A DNA stretch of 64,000 nucleotides, from positions 7,564 through 71,563 of the forward strand of contig JAHECR010000011.1 in the NCBI GenBank assembly GCA_024641655.1, in the 5' to 3' direction. Below, one piece after another: positions 14,617 through 19,647 of this stretch; position 1 is the stretch's first letter, and every line of letters begins with the position of its first letter. The DNA comes from Acidimicrobiaceae bacterium (lineage in GTDB: Bacteria > Actinomycetota > Acidimicrobiia > Acidimicrobiales > UBA8592). The translations under genes were made by a program, and so were the position numbers. The notes beneath the pieces are model-generated. The model was not told the DNA's origin. It saw only the letters and a list, made by a program, of their open reading frames with translations, and ran no database searches.

Positions 14617-16779
14617 TCAGGCTTCGTGGTAGAGCACCGGCTCACGGGCGTGGCGGCCGAGCGCCCCATGGGGCATCGGCGCAATTGGGTCCGAAGCTGC
14701 CTCGATCCCGGGAACCACGGTCCCGAGGTGCTTGTCTGCGGCGAGCATCGCCCCGACGGAACCCTGGTCGCGTCCGCGGATCCACTCCTCGAACTCATCG
14801 GCAGGCAACGGGCGTGAGTGCAGGTAGCCCTGCGAGGCCTCGCAGCCGAGCCGGCGCAGTTCGCGCAGCTGCCGCTCGTTTTCAACCCCTTCGGCGACGA
14901 CCTTGAAGTCCAACGCGCTGGCCAGCGCCACGATGCCCGTCACCAGCGCCGTGTCCTCGGGACTGGTGCCGAGTCCGTTCACGAACGCCTTGTCGATCTT
15001 GAGGGTCTGTGCCGGCATGGACTTGAGATAGGCCAGCGAGGAGTACCCCGTCCCGAAGTCGTCGATCGCGATGCCGATGCCGAGATCACGGAGACGTCCG
15101 AGCGTCGCCATGGTCTCACCCACGTCGACCATGAGCGTGCTCTCGGTGACCTCGAGGGTCAGCTTGGCGGGGTCGAGACCGCTGCGTGACAGCGCCGCGT
15201 GCACGCTTCGCTCCAGCGCGGCATCGCCGAGTTGCACGCCCGAGAGGTTCACGCTGATCGACAGCGCCCTACGCGTCAGCCGGTCACGATTCCACGCCGA
15301 CACCTGCTCGACGGCGGTTTCGAGCACCTTGGCACCGATCTGTCCGATCAGCCCCGTCTCCTCGGCGACGGGGATGAACTGGTCAGGTGGTACCAGGCCG
15401 CGTCGGGGATGCATCCACCGGACGAGCGCCTCGGCGCCCGTCGGGCGGCCGGTGATCACGTCCATGATCGGCTGGTAGTGCACGACGAACTCGTCGTTTT
15501 CGATCCCGCGCCGGAGGTCGGACTCGATCTCCAGACGCTGCGCGGCGCGGTGCTCGAGCGACTCGTCGTACACGGCGATGGTGTTCTTGCCTCGTCGCTT
15601 CGCCTCGTACATCGCGAGGTCGGCGGCTTTGAGGAGCCGCTCGCTGTCGGCCTCCTGCGGTGAAGGAGCAGCGGCGATGCCGACGCTTGCAGTGATGTTG
15701 AAGGCCTTCCCGTCGAGGGTCATGGGGTGACCGAAGGGAAGCGCGACCAGGTGCTCCAGCTCGCCGTGTCCGGCTCCCGGAGCGGTGCTGCAGGCCACGA
15801 CGAACTCGTCGCCGCCGATGCGCCCGACGAGCCCGTAGCCACCGATCGCCTCCTCGAGACGTTCGCCGACCGTACGCAGGACCTGATCGCCCATGTCGTG
15901 GCCGAGTGCGTCGTTGATCGTCTTGAAGTTGTCGAGGTCCAGGAATGCCAGCGTGAGCACCCGACCGTTCCCGGCCTCGGCGAGGTGGCGAATGTGATTG
16001 GCCAGCCCGGCGCGATTGGCGAGCCCCGTCAGGGGGTCGACGGTGTGCAGCTCGGCAAGTTGATCTTCCTGGTTTCGCGCGCTGGTGCGGTCGTCGAGGG
16101 TGATCGCGATCAGGTCGCCGAGGTCGGCGACGTGCACCGCAGCCACCCGTCGCTGCTTGGTGCGGTGGTCGAGCTCGACGACGGTGCCCTCGCTCGAGCG
16201 TCGGGAGACGAGTTCGGCCAGCCGCGACCAGTCGTCGGCGGTCGCGATGCGTCGGACGTCGGTCCCGAGGAGCGCACCTTGGGTTCTGCCGAGGTAGGCC
16301 GCAGCGGCGGCGTTGAGGTACTCGATATGGAAGTCGAGCCCAGCAGCGATGACCGGGGCACTGATGGCATCGAGGATGCCGTGATGGGGGCCGAGGTCGG
16401 TCACAGGCCGCACGGTCTGCAGGGTCAGCAGCGCCAGCCGTTGGCCACCTCCGGAGGGGGTCGGTGCCAGTCGCAGCGTCACCGCCACGTCGCTCACGAG
16501 CGCGGGTTGGTCTTCGTCGAGGAGCACGCGTGGCGCGTCGACGTCCTCTCGCATGGCCGTGGCGACGAGCTCGGCGACACTCTCGGCGAGGAAACTCGAC
16601 AGCTGGCGTCGCATCGTTTCGCGCAGCGGCTTCCCGGTGAGGCGGGCGAACTCCTCGTTGCCGCCGACGACGGTGAGGTCCTCGCCCGAGAGGCGGATGA
16701 CGACCGCAGGATCCGGTGCTGCCGCGAGAAGGCTGGGAAGATGATCGAGCTGGATGACACCGTGTGCTGAGGCTCCCAC
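14617..16779 (-). CDS. PAS-PAS-GGDEF-EAL cyclic-di-GMP turnover protein
   Basis: Bifunctional-type c-di-GMP enzyme (720 aa, soluble). Two PAS-like sensor regions (about residues 10-120 and 130-235) precede a GGDEF domain with intact RIGGDEF at about 320 and an EAL domain with EALVRW at about 450. The EAL domain keeps [26 protein letters not shown] and VAEGVE, so phosphodiesterase activity is expected. The GGDEF active site is also complete but the RxxD inhibitory site is absent. No membrane segment is seen, so signals are probably intracellular. The start at 16779 is the track ATG; other starts are possible. Confidence 0.94.
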
Positions 16780-16957: not shown

Positions 16958-17194
16958 ATGTCACGGATCTGTCAGGTCACCGGGCGCAAGCCGGCCTTCG
17001 GGAACAACGTCTCGCACTCGCACCGCAAGACGCGTCGCCGTTGGAACCCGAACATTCAGACGAAGCGCTTCTACGTGCCGAACGAGAAGCGTTGGGTCAC
17101 GCTCACGGTGAGTGCCAAAGGGGTCAAGACCATCAACAAGCGCGGCATCGACCGGGTGCTCGCCGACATGCGTCGTCGTGGGGAGAAGATCTGA
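16958..17194 (+). CDS. rpmB: 50S ribosomal protein L28
   Basis: Large-subunit ribosomal protein (78 aa). It opens [20 protein letters not shown] and contains the family phrase [13 protein letters not shown]. Only one cysteine is present, so this is the zinc-independent (C-minus) form, whereas the C-plus form carries CxxC pairs. The stop and the rpmG start overlap by one base (TGATG). In mycobacteria and streptomycetes C-minus L28/L33 pairs are the zinc-starvation versions, but whether this genome has other copies cannot be seen here. Confidence 0.98.
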
Positions 17195-17361
17195 TGCCAG
17201 CTGGAAGCGACAAGCGCCCGGTCATCAAGCTCAAGTCGACCGCAGGCACCGGCTACACGTACGTGACGAACAAGAACAAGGTCAACTCGCGTGAGCGTAT
17301 CGAGCTCAAGAAGTACGACCCCATCGTGCGCCAGCACGTGGTGTTCCGCGAAGAGAAGTAG
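17194..17361 (+). CDS. rpmG: 50S ribosomal protein L33
   Basis: Large-subunit ribosomal protein (55 aa) with the family core [19 protein letters not shown] and [16 protein letters not shown]. It contains no cysteine and is therefore the zinc-free form, matching the adjacent L28. Start ATG 17194 overlaps the rpmB stop. Short tail-to-head distance (24 bp) suggests the HD-domain gene behind it may be in the same transcript. Confidence 0.98.
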
Positions 17362-17385: not shown

Positions 17386-18168
17386 ATGACTCACACCGTA
17401 GAGGAGCAGCGCGAGCTGCTCGACGCCGCGCTCATGGCAGACGACGTCGCCGATGCCCTCTGGCGATTCGTCGACTGCGGGTTCGCGGACGAAATCGTCC
17501 CTGAGCTTCCCGCGCTCCGACTCGAGCAGGATCCGATCCATCGGCACAAGGACGTGCTGGCGCACACGATTGCGGTGATCGCGCAGACCCCGCCGGTGCA
17601 CGTCGTCCGTCTCGGGGCGTTGTTTCACGATGTCGGAAAGCCGGCGACACGCTCGTTCGAGCACGGCGGGGTGACCTTCCGTCACCACGAAGCGGTCGGT
17701 GCGAAGATGGCCCGGTCGCGCATGCGCGCGTTGGCGTATCCTCCCGAGACCGTGCGCGACGTCGTCGAGCTCGTGCGGCTCTCCGGTCGATTCAAGGGCT
17801 ATGCCGACGGGTGGAGCGACGCAGCGGTGCGCCGTTTCGCCCGCGACGCCGGCCACCTGCTCGGGCACCTCAACGCGTTGGTGCGCTCCGACTGCACCAC
17901 CCGAAATCCGAAGAAGCGCATGGAGCTCCAGCACCACGTCGACGAGCTGGAAGCCCGGATCGCCGAGCTGGCCGAAGCGGACCGAATCGCAGCGGAGCGC
18001 CCGTTGCTCGATGGCGAGGCGGTGATGGAGCTCCTCGGTGTCGGCCCCGGGCCGGTGATCGGCCAGGCGCTCGCGTTCTTGTTGGACCTCAAGCGCTCCG
18101 AGCCCGACCTCGACGCCGCGCAGACCGAGGTGCGCCTGCGCGCCTGGTGGGCCGACAGGGCCGGCTGA
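17386..18168 (+). CDS. HD-domain protein resembling the PcnA/CCA-adding enzyme body without its catalytic head
   Basis: A 260-aa protein that aligns by eye with the C-terminal half of actinobacterial PcnA-type tRNA nucleotidyltransferases: neck (ALWRFVDCGFADEIVPELPALRLEQDP), HD domain (HRHKDVLAHT, LGALFHDVGKPATR, RHHEAVGAKM), then RSDCTTRNPKKRMELQ and the RNA-binding tail (ELLGVGPGPVIGQALAFLLDLK). The N-terminal polymerase head of about 200 residues is absent and no such sequence lies upstream, where rpmG ends 24 bp earlier. It may act as an HD phosphohydrolase or RNA-binding protein; CCA addition is not expected. Confidence 0.8.
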   Translation: MTHTVEEQRELLDAALMADDVADALWRFVDCGFADEIVPELPALRLEQDPIHRHKDVLAHTIAVIAQTPPVHVVRLGALFHDVGKPATRSFEHGGVTFRHHEAVGAKMARSRMRALAYPPETVRDVVELVRLSGRFKGYADGWSDAAVRRFARDAGHLLGHLNALVRSDCTTRNPKKRMELQHHVDELEARIAELAEADRIAAERPLLDGEAVMELLGVGPGPVIGQALAFLLDLKRSEPDLDAAQTEVRLRAWWADRAG

Positions 18169-18213: not shown

Positions 18214-19647
18214 ATGGTTTCGCGCCGATTGGGCCCCATGCGTTTCTCGAATGATCCTCCGGCCAGGGGTCCGCGACCCCTCGGCGACCGTCGGGCACGG
18301 ATGCTCGTGCTCAGCGGTGCGATTGCCTTGTCGGCGTTGTTCGCACCCGGCTCGATGCGATCGGCGATGGCGCAGGCCATCGACGTGCCCCTCGGTGGCA
18401 CCGCGACGATCTCCAACGGGACCGAGTGTGCTCCCAATGCCGAGGCTCAGGTGTACCTCACGGTCGGCGACAACGACCCGCTGCCGATGGGCCAGGTCAC
18501 CACCGACGCCGACGGGCACTTCGAGGTCGCGATCCCGGTGCCGTCGAATCTCGACACCGGACCTGGTGCAGTCGTGATCGACTGCGGCATCGAGGGTTCG
18601 GTCCTGATCTACGAGGTCGAGTTCTCGAGCTCCGGCTCGACGTTGTTCTCGCTCGATGTGGGACTGCTCGCGATCGTCGGCGCCGGCGTTCTCGCCGTGT
18701 TCTCGGTCGTGGCCCTGGTCTGGGCCCGGCGGAGCCGGAGTGCCGCAGCCGAGACATGGGAGCCCCCGGCAAACCCCACTCCGGCCGAGGCCGACGATGC
18801 AGAAGCTGACGCCGAAGCGGTGGACTTCAGCTTCGTCGCACCCGTCGACCCGAGTGCCCCCGCCTTCGCAGCGGCCACATCCGACGCCCCGTCAGCCTTC
18901 GGCTTGCCGGTGCAGGCAGGGGCCGAGACCACGATTGAGGGCAACGGTCTCGCGTTCGCCCCACTCGACGGTGCACCGTCCGTCGACACCTCAGCCTTCG
19001 GCGTGGCTGCCTTCACCGGGCGCCCCCACGGCGATCCCGAAACCGACCGCGACGACGATCTCCACTCCGACGAGGTGCCCGCGCCGGCCTTCGGCGTAGA
19101 CGACGTCGAGACCTCCGGATCCGGGGCGCCAGGCTCCACCGCAGACTCGGAAGCCACCGGTGGTGACACCGAGGACGATCCCTGCGACGAGGTACTCCGA
19201 TCGAGTGCGGTCGCTTCGGGCCAACGGGTCGCTGAGCCGTCGACTCCCGTCGGGGGATCGGCACGGCACGACGACGATGACGAGGACGACGAAGGCGCCG
19301 ACTACTGGTTCTGGGACGTCGAAACCCCGCGTGGACCGGCGCGGCGGTTGGCATGCCTGACCGAGAACACGTTCCACCTCGATGAGGTCCCCGTCGAGGG
19401 CTTCTCCGGTCTCCTGGGGCGAATCGCGCAGCTCGGCCCCGAGACCGCACTGGCCCGCTCGTTCGTCTCGGTTCGTCTCGAGGACGTCGACGGGGTGTAT
19501 CGCCGAGGCACAGAGATCAAGATCTCCTATCGCAACGACGCCGGGAACCCGGTCGCGAAGACCGTAGACCTGGGCGCGGAGCTCAACGGGGTCCTCGACC
19601 TGCTGAGCAGGCGCTTCGTCGTGCACCAGGTGCCCCTGCCGGTCTGA
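18214..19647 (+). CDS. Single-pass membrane protein of unknown function
   Basis: Unrecognised protein (477 aa). Visible layout: signal peptide (about 30-55, MLVLSGAIALSALFAPGSM), a secreted beta-rich domain of about 90 residues beginning IDVPLGGTATIS, a transmembrane helix at about 148-170 (LDVGLLAIVGAGVLAVFSVVALVW) and basic stop-transfer ARRSRS, then a 190-residue acidic, Asp/Ala/Ser/Pro-rich linker including a run HDDDDEDDEGA, and a globular C-terminal domain of about 110 residues (YWFWDVETPRGPARRLACL onward). The linker suggests a cytoplasmic tether between membrane and C-terminal domain. Which of several N-terminal ATGs is used is uncertain. Confidence 0.75.
   Translation: MVSRRLGPMRFSNDPPARGPRPLGDRRARMLVLSGAIALSALFAPGSMRSAMAQAIDVPLGGTATISNGTECAPNAEAQVYLTVGDNDPLPMGQVTTDADGHFEVAIPVPSNLDTGPGAVVIDCGIEGSVLIYEVEFSSSGSTLFSLDVGLLAIVGAGVLAVFSVVALVWARRSRSAAAETWEPPANPTPAEADDAEADAEAVDFSFVAPVDPSAPAFAAATSDAPSAFGLPVQAGAETTIEGNGLAFAPLDGAPSVDTSAFGVAAFTGRPHGDPETDRDDDLHSDEVPAPAFGVDDVETSGSGAPGSTADSEATGGDTEDDPCDEVLRSSAVASGQRVAEPSTPVGGSARHDDDDEDDEGADYWFWDVETPRGPARRLACLTENTFHLDEVPVEGFSGLLGRIAQLGPETALARSFVSVRLEDVDGVYRRGTEIKISYRNDAGNPVAKTVDLGAELNGVLDLLSRRFVVHQVPLPV

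Follow-up and report, generated by a model that had tools for sequence, protein, structure and literature searches.

Apparent division of a CCA-adding enzyme between two genes in a branch of Acidimicrobiales

Introduction

The reason why an HD hydrolase domain is present in bacterial CCA enzymes is, to our knowledge, not settled. In the actinobacterial form of the enzyme (NCBIfam TIGR02692), to which Rv3907c of M. tuberculosis belongs, a nucleotidyltransferase head, a neck, an HD-bearing body and a tail are fused in one protein. According to the available text of PMC10673834, pNPP in the presence of metals was hydrolysed by wild-type Rv3907c and by a head mutant, but not by the H298A mutant; with reference to Yakunin 2004 on the E. 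coli HD domain, the same text connects HD activity with clearing tRNA 3' ends of 2',3'-cyclic phosphates. For HD proteins more widely, the accessible portion of PMC8177086 distinguishes the motif H...HD...D, which denotes one metal, from H...HD...H...H...D, which is diagnostic for two, and from H...HD...H...HH...D, which marks polynuclear phosphodiesterases. Because one- and two-metal HD phosphatases can act on similar substrates (same portion of PMC8177086), a count of metals is not enough to say which substrate is used.

Division of a task at the tRNA 3' end between two enzymes is described for the CC-adding and A-adding enzymes (PMC7014341, in the part available): both are nucleotidyltransferases, whereas in the case reported here a polymerase is divided from an HD hydrolase. 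An HD fold beside tRNA-binding parts that resemble those of CCA enzymes is also described, in the available sections of PMC8464048, for the HD-like domain of the beta subunit of heterotetrameric GlyRS (7eiv_D, Z 8.3); the catalytic doublet is lost there but invariant in the family described below. A 2018 marker study reports a one-amino-acid deletion in the CCA enzyme of Acidimicrobiia, and its available text mentions no such division (PMC5962788). Our literature search, in which coverage of subscription journals was thin and sources were partly accessible, found no prior report of a headless CCA enzyme or of a division between polymerase and HD hydrolase.

Here we describe a headless relative of the CCA-adding enzyme in a 64,000-nucleotide stretch of DNA from an Acidimicrobiaceae bacterium (the window), together with its separately encoded counterpart. 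In a branch of Acidimicrobiales, it appears, separate genes now encode the two activities of what was a single enzyme.

Results

A CCA-enzyme paralogue without a head

The open reading frame that lies directly after rpmG in the window, across a gap of 24 bp (Table 1), corresponds to the latter part of a CCA-adding enzyme: against the 466-position model TIGR02692 it matches positions 206-466 with 268.3 bits (1.1e-79, NCBIfam), below the curated cut-off of 438.8 bits. It belongs to the HD superfamily (PF01966, 35 bits against a cut-off of 22, doublet H81-D82 included) and to the HDIG subgroup (TIGR00277, 49 bits against 27.6), and has no Pfam match to the nucleotidyltransferase head PF01743. The profile match, the Pfam HD domain and the structural model agree with the sequence-only reading of this locus, according to which neck, HD and tail are present and the head is missing. 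That reading also held that no head could be hidden upstream, which is borne out: the reading frame is closed eight codons 5' of its ATG, and the only PF01743 domain in the genome lies on a different contig.

Table 1. Coordinates of the headless gene, its predicted functional residues and its upstream neighbors in the window
Feature	Position	Strand	Basis
Headless CCA-enzyme paralogue, 260 aa (neck, HD domain, body/tail)	17386..18168	+	TIGR02692 positions 206-466; PF01966 HD; AlphaFold2 pLDDT 95.0
HD domain by Pfam match, residues 63-137	17572..17796	+	PF01966
H60, presumed first metal ligand	17563..17565	+	H in 105/105 headless and 45/45 fused; presumed role from motif in available text of PMC8177086
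H81-D82, HD doublet	17626..17631	+	Invariant in headless and fused groups
H101, presumed second-metal histidine, retained	17686..17688	+	Invariant in headless and fused groups
S133-G134-R135-F136-K137, headless signature in place of fused H-L-R-F-H	17782..17796	+	No sites but 133, 134 and 137 differ between the groups by fixation
D169, presumed last metal aspartate	17890..17892	+	Invariant in both groups; role presumed
Tail, residues 203-260	17992..18165	+	Tail profile match; model helices 210-217, 223-238, 244-259
rpmG (ribosomal protein L33), lineage-specific neighbor, 24 bp upstream of headless gene	17194..17361	+	PF00471; neighborhood counts
rpmB (ribosomal protein L28), upstream of rpmG	16958..17194	+	PF00830

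Neck, HD body and tail of the fused actinobacterial enzyme align over the whole headless protein (approximately 50-57% identity within the order) and the HD domain is likewise of HDIG type; the headless protein differs in the absence of the head, in the replacement of H133, L134 and H137 by S, G and K, and in its genomic place. The nearest solved fold is that of the HD-bearing tRNA processing enzyme of PDB entries 3wfo-3wfs, which is near by sequence too: the AlphaFold2 model superimposes on 3wfo_A with Z 21.3 and 2.0 A over 184 residues (range 2-197). That enzyme, however, has a head, and carries H-H-L-R where the headless family has L-S-G-R.

On the opposite strand a PAS-GGDEF-EAL protein (window 14617-16779, -) adjoins rpmB. 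Downstream of the headless gene lies a 477-aa open reading frame without any Pfam match (window 18214-19647, +), a homologue of which also follows the headless gene in a second genome (G001).

A separate head gene that has lost its HD domain

The source genome (121 contigs, 92.8% complete) contains a single PF01743 head, on contig C102. Head and neck of the encoded protein match TIGR02692 positions 46-244 (NCBIfam, a second matching stretch being counted); beyond them, alignment with the headless protein is limited to the tail, the HD stretch being gone. PF01743 combined with PolyA_pol_RNAbd (PF12627), the nucleotidyltransferase residues and the CCA-enzyme fold make it a class II CCA-adding enzyme. 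Its AlphaFold2 model (pLDDT 93.3) has the whole CCA-enzyme fold, with the best match to 1miv (TM 0.79/0.83), the CCA-adding enzyme of Bacillus, which we take to lack an HD domain. The partner gene shares architecture and fold with this Bacillus-type class II enzyme but derives, by locus and by sequence, from the actinobacterial fused enzyme, of which the headless protein is the complementary part. The nucleotidyltransferase residues are conserved throughout the HD-less partner family (37 rows), where the motifs presumably have their usual roles. The sequence-only reading had proposed a search for a full pcnA elsewhere in the genome: a gene for a CCA-type nucleotidyltransferase is indeed there, but its HD domain has been lost.

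Searches with the PF01743 profile, plus fetched loci, gave a similar picture across the 104 genomes that carry the headless form (see below): 98 have a separate head gene and two have a fused enzyme (G025 and G207, family f7), while in four (G015, G221, G230 and G286) no PF01743 head was found. The separate head is of actinobacterial type in 92 of the 98 and has a detectable tail, and hence full length, in 88 of these 92 (exceptions: G036, G052, G090 and G097). The 88 full-length heads score at most 34 bits with the HD profiles (83 of them nothing at all), as against 119-180 bits for fused proteins. The score of 34 bits belongs to the head gene of G031 (L064, 1213-2760, +), whose HD domain is decayed and reaches 17.5 bits with the Pfam HD model, below the cut-off: an apparent intermediate of HD loss.

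The other six separate heads come from family f40. Of these, G058 was compared with NCBIfam and comes closest to the E. coli-type model PRK10885, with the HD domain present; the remaining five have similarly low head-profile scores. In this family (L071, 1956-4868, -; L281-L285) the actinobacterial CCA enzyme appears to have been exchanged for another, and the headless gene has been retained.

The headless form was seen in one order only and has a single origin

The headless form was found in 104 genomes from 16 family groups, all of them within Acidimicrobiales. The order was sampled with 297 genomes, 288 of which match the headless protein, and each match was called headless or fused according to which HD profile fits better. 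By this measure 97 of the 297 genomes have the headless form: 95 at 302-575 bits, plus second copies in G025 and G207. Seven further genomes from a separate search bring the total to 104; one candidate (G073) was removed, its fused gene being cut by the end of a contig. Most of the genomes examined are metagenome-assembled, and for most of the other matching genomes of the order fused status is read from frame length and score, genes not having been inspected individually. Outside the order no headless form was seen among 246 genomes of the phylum, 145 of them with a match: every outside frame among the matches listed has at least 442 aa. Three genomes assembled as single contigs (G179, 3.59 Mb; G235, 3.81 Mb; G069, 2.29 Mb) each contain one headless gene and one HD-less head gene, far apart, and no fused gene.

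Ten genomes have an HD-less head but no headless gene that could be found (G073 excluded), seven of which belong to genus g3. In that genus the headless gene is missing from 9 of 18 genomes, and since its upstream neighbor rpmB is likewise absent from all nine assemblies (the control, G003, has rpmB), the apparent loss is most plausibly a gap in the assemblies. The other three of the ten, G111, G195 and G234, lie outside g3 and are not accounted for in this way.

Two peculiarities of individual records deserve mention. The headless gene of G025 (L074, 1557-2744, +) has a 396-aa frame, about 135 aa of which precede the match, and lacks a head; and three records (L161, L175 and L188) titled Bifidobacterium breve or Acidimicrobium ferrooxidans came up among uncultured Acidimicrobiales, so that their titles are probably wrong.

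When one headless sequence per genus is taken (44 rows, quick tree method), all fall into one clade (SH-aLRT 100) on a stem of 0.64, and the two f7 sequences sit inside it on a long branch (1.03): the headless family has a single origin. The tree of head domains (78 rows) is poorly resolved. The data do not establish a multiple origin of the HD-less heads (38 of the 78 rows): a tree in which they are kept as one clade is not rejected (p-AU 0.576).

The headless gene is under strong purifying selection, with a median dN/dS of 0.086 and a maximum of 0.173 in the 60 closest of 155 pairs above 80% identity; these 60 pairs share genomes and are thus non-independent. Sequencing error, pseudogene formation and assembly break are therefore ruled out for the family by 104 genomes, one clade and this dN/dS, and with them the upstream sequencing error that might have undone the sequence-only reading. 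That the headless form is a frameshifted, broken or decayed fused enzyme is not an idle suspicion, the discarded candidate G073 having been exactly such a case; but three of the 104 genomes are single contigs and none of the headless frames has a head match, so that the chance of an artefact is negligible.

The HD-less gene occupies the ancestral locus

The neighborhoods of the three kinds of gene show which copy has moved. Among loci with a flank of 3 kb or more, 32 of 38 fused genes are followed by a DUF5318 gene (Pfam); so are 78 of 99 HD-less heads with a flank of 550 bp or more, but none of 139 headless genes and none of six f40 heads. Likewise, a histone-deacetylase-like gene lies upstream of 12 of 34 fused genes (at least 3 kb of flank) and 69 of 96 HD-less heads (at least 1 kb), and of none of 138 headless genes and none of three f40 heads. 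(Counts for the heads include the split fused gene of G073.) Since fused and HD-less genes share these flanks, it is the HD-less head gene that has kept the ancestral locus and the headless copy that has moved.

The sequence-only reading had linked the protein to ribosomal proteins. In 37 of 104 genomes, from 7 of 16 families, rpmG does precede the headless gene on the same strand by no more than 3.5 kb, but a position directly before it, at 0-96 bp from the estimated start, is limited to 26 genomes in f1, f35 and f52 (six others have too little flank to tell). With rpmG near in only 37 of 104 genomes, linkage to ribosomal proteins as a general rule is rejected; the association is lineage-specific.

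A fixed residue switch at the predicted metal site

Residues were compared between 105 headless and 45 fused rows, 11 of the latter coming from outside the order by tree grouping. Exactly three sites are fixed differently (H133->S, L134->G and H137->K): position 133 is S in 105/105 headless and H in 45/45 fused rows, position 134 is G in 105/105 headless rows and L (39) or H (6) in fused rows, and position 137 is K in 105/105 headless and H in 45/45 fused rows. By contrast H54, H60, H81, D82, H101, D145, R149 and D169 are invariant in headless and fused rows.

Additional named loci were found with search patterns that contain the signature, and so were left out of these counts. With them added, 123 of 124 distinct headless rows read S-G-R-F-K, two with a short insertion after the motif; the only exception, L170, reads S-G-R-F-H. 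Four fused proteins (L175, L178, L180 and L191) also carry S-G-R-F-H, with S-G at 133-134 and the later histidine kept. The change at H133 has thus also arisen in fused enzymes, and S-G by itself does not set headless proteins apart from fused ones.

Judged from the alignment, the fused enzymes fit the two-metal form, with H60, H81-D82, H101, H133 and D169 as the presumptive residues. H60, H133 and D169 would on this assignment be ligands, D169 rather than D145 probably being the last one, and S133 would be placed at the metal site. The headless proteins lack the six-residue two-metal signature, its fifth residue, H133, being replaced in 105/105, and retain the one-metal signature H...HD...D in invariant H60, H81, D82 and D169.

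Discussion

We propose the following history. An ancestor within the Acidimicrobiales would have had an ordinary fused actinobacterial CCA enzyme, with nucleotidyltransferase head, neck, HD-bearing body and tail. A copy of the 3' part of the gene (neck, HD, body and tail) would have become established elsewhere, the head being lost, and would be the gene found in the window; the original, still at the old locus, would then have lost its HD domain, so that it now resembles an HD-less CCA-adding enzyme of the Bacillus type. Most likely the headless protein acts on its own as an HD phosphohydrolase that binds tRNA and works on its 3' end, the metal centre being reduced; we infer tRNA binding, catalysis, metal number and substrate alike. 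It would bind tRNA through body and tail, and its HD metal site, acting in trans, would strip a phosphate from damaged or immature 3' ends. Through H133->S and H137->K the two-metal signature loses its fifth residue, so that a one-metal or weakened two-metal centre is expected. Such a centre would act on a phosphomonoester (2'- or 3'-phosphate) in preference to a cyclic phosphodiester; H133->S might also weaken or eliminate catalysis. For this explanation as a whole, a relocated headless tRNA 3'-end phosphohydrolase beside an HD-less CCA enzyme at the old locus, we estimate a probability of about 0.55.

The sequence-only reading had suggested a specialised phosphohydrolase for cyclic or 3'-phosphate tRNA ends. 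A phosphohydrolase remains a sound suggestion by analogy with the HD-dependent activity of fused Rv3907c; the cyclic-phosphodiesterase version is weakened, because the predicted second-metal histidine is replaced in 105/105 headless proteins. Nor would the headless protein simply replace the lost HD domain, because it coexists with HD-bearing CCA enzymes in f7 (two genomes, fused) and f40 (six genomes, judged from G058). This coexistence argues that its putative function is something that the fused HD domain does not do, or that it does better.

Each protein has what the other lacks, so the two might associate into a heteromer that restores the bifunctional enzyme, and their joint presence in 92 of 104 headless genomes is in keeping with this. 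A separately encoded head that binds the protein had been named as a possible refutation of the sequence-only reading; such a head does exist in 98 of 104 genomes, but nothing requires it to bind the headless protein. The HD-less protein, however, is already equipped with neck, body and tail and, by its confident model, has a complete CCA-enzyme fold; none of the three single-contig genomes has the two genes linked; and the headless protein is retained beside a fused enzyme in two genomes and beside the different f40 head in six. We consider a heteromer decidedly unlikely. An HD phosphohydrolase that has left tRNA-end repair altogether, for a free nucleotide, an alarmone or another RNA, with S-G-R-F-K as the new pocket, would account for a motif fixed in 105/105 rows while the rest of the metal site is kept, for the long stem (0.64) of the clade, and for retention alongside HD-bearing CCA enzymes (in f7, on a long branch, together with the fused one). 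Yet body and tail, the tRNA-holding parts in this class of enzyme, are kept at full length and only three sites are fixed differently, and a new substrate of this kind seems unlikely to us.

Loss of the predicted second-metal histidine could alternatively mean that the headless protein still binds tRNA but has no catalytic activity left, a state for which the GlyRS beta subunit, whose HD-like domain is an HD fold with the doublet lost (PMC8464048, available part), offers a precedent. A dead site is expected to drift, however, and H60, H81, D82, H101 and D169 are each invariant in 105/105, which makes a dead protein highly improbable.

More tentatively, the relocated phosphohydrolase may represent a new class of tRNA-guided HD enzyme: the detached body of a CCA enzyme, its metal centre rebuilt by the fixed replacement of two histidines (H133->S and H137->K), would then act on a substrate, or by a chemistry, on tRNA that the fused enzyme lacks, and would for that reason be kept beside HD-bearing CCA enzymes.

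On the preferred reading, that of a relocated phosphohydrolase beside an HD-less CCA enzyme, CCA addition would be done by the HD-less head gene. Two activities would thus stand in two genes, with intermediates left behind: both forms in f7, a decaying HD domain in G031 and, in f40, a CCA enzyme that appears to have been exchanged. Deleting one gene would then put the function of the HD domain to the test with essential CCA addition left intact, and the fixed residue switch would offer a direct handle on one-metal versus two-metal HD chemistry on a tRNA substrate.
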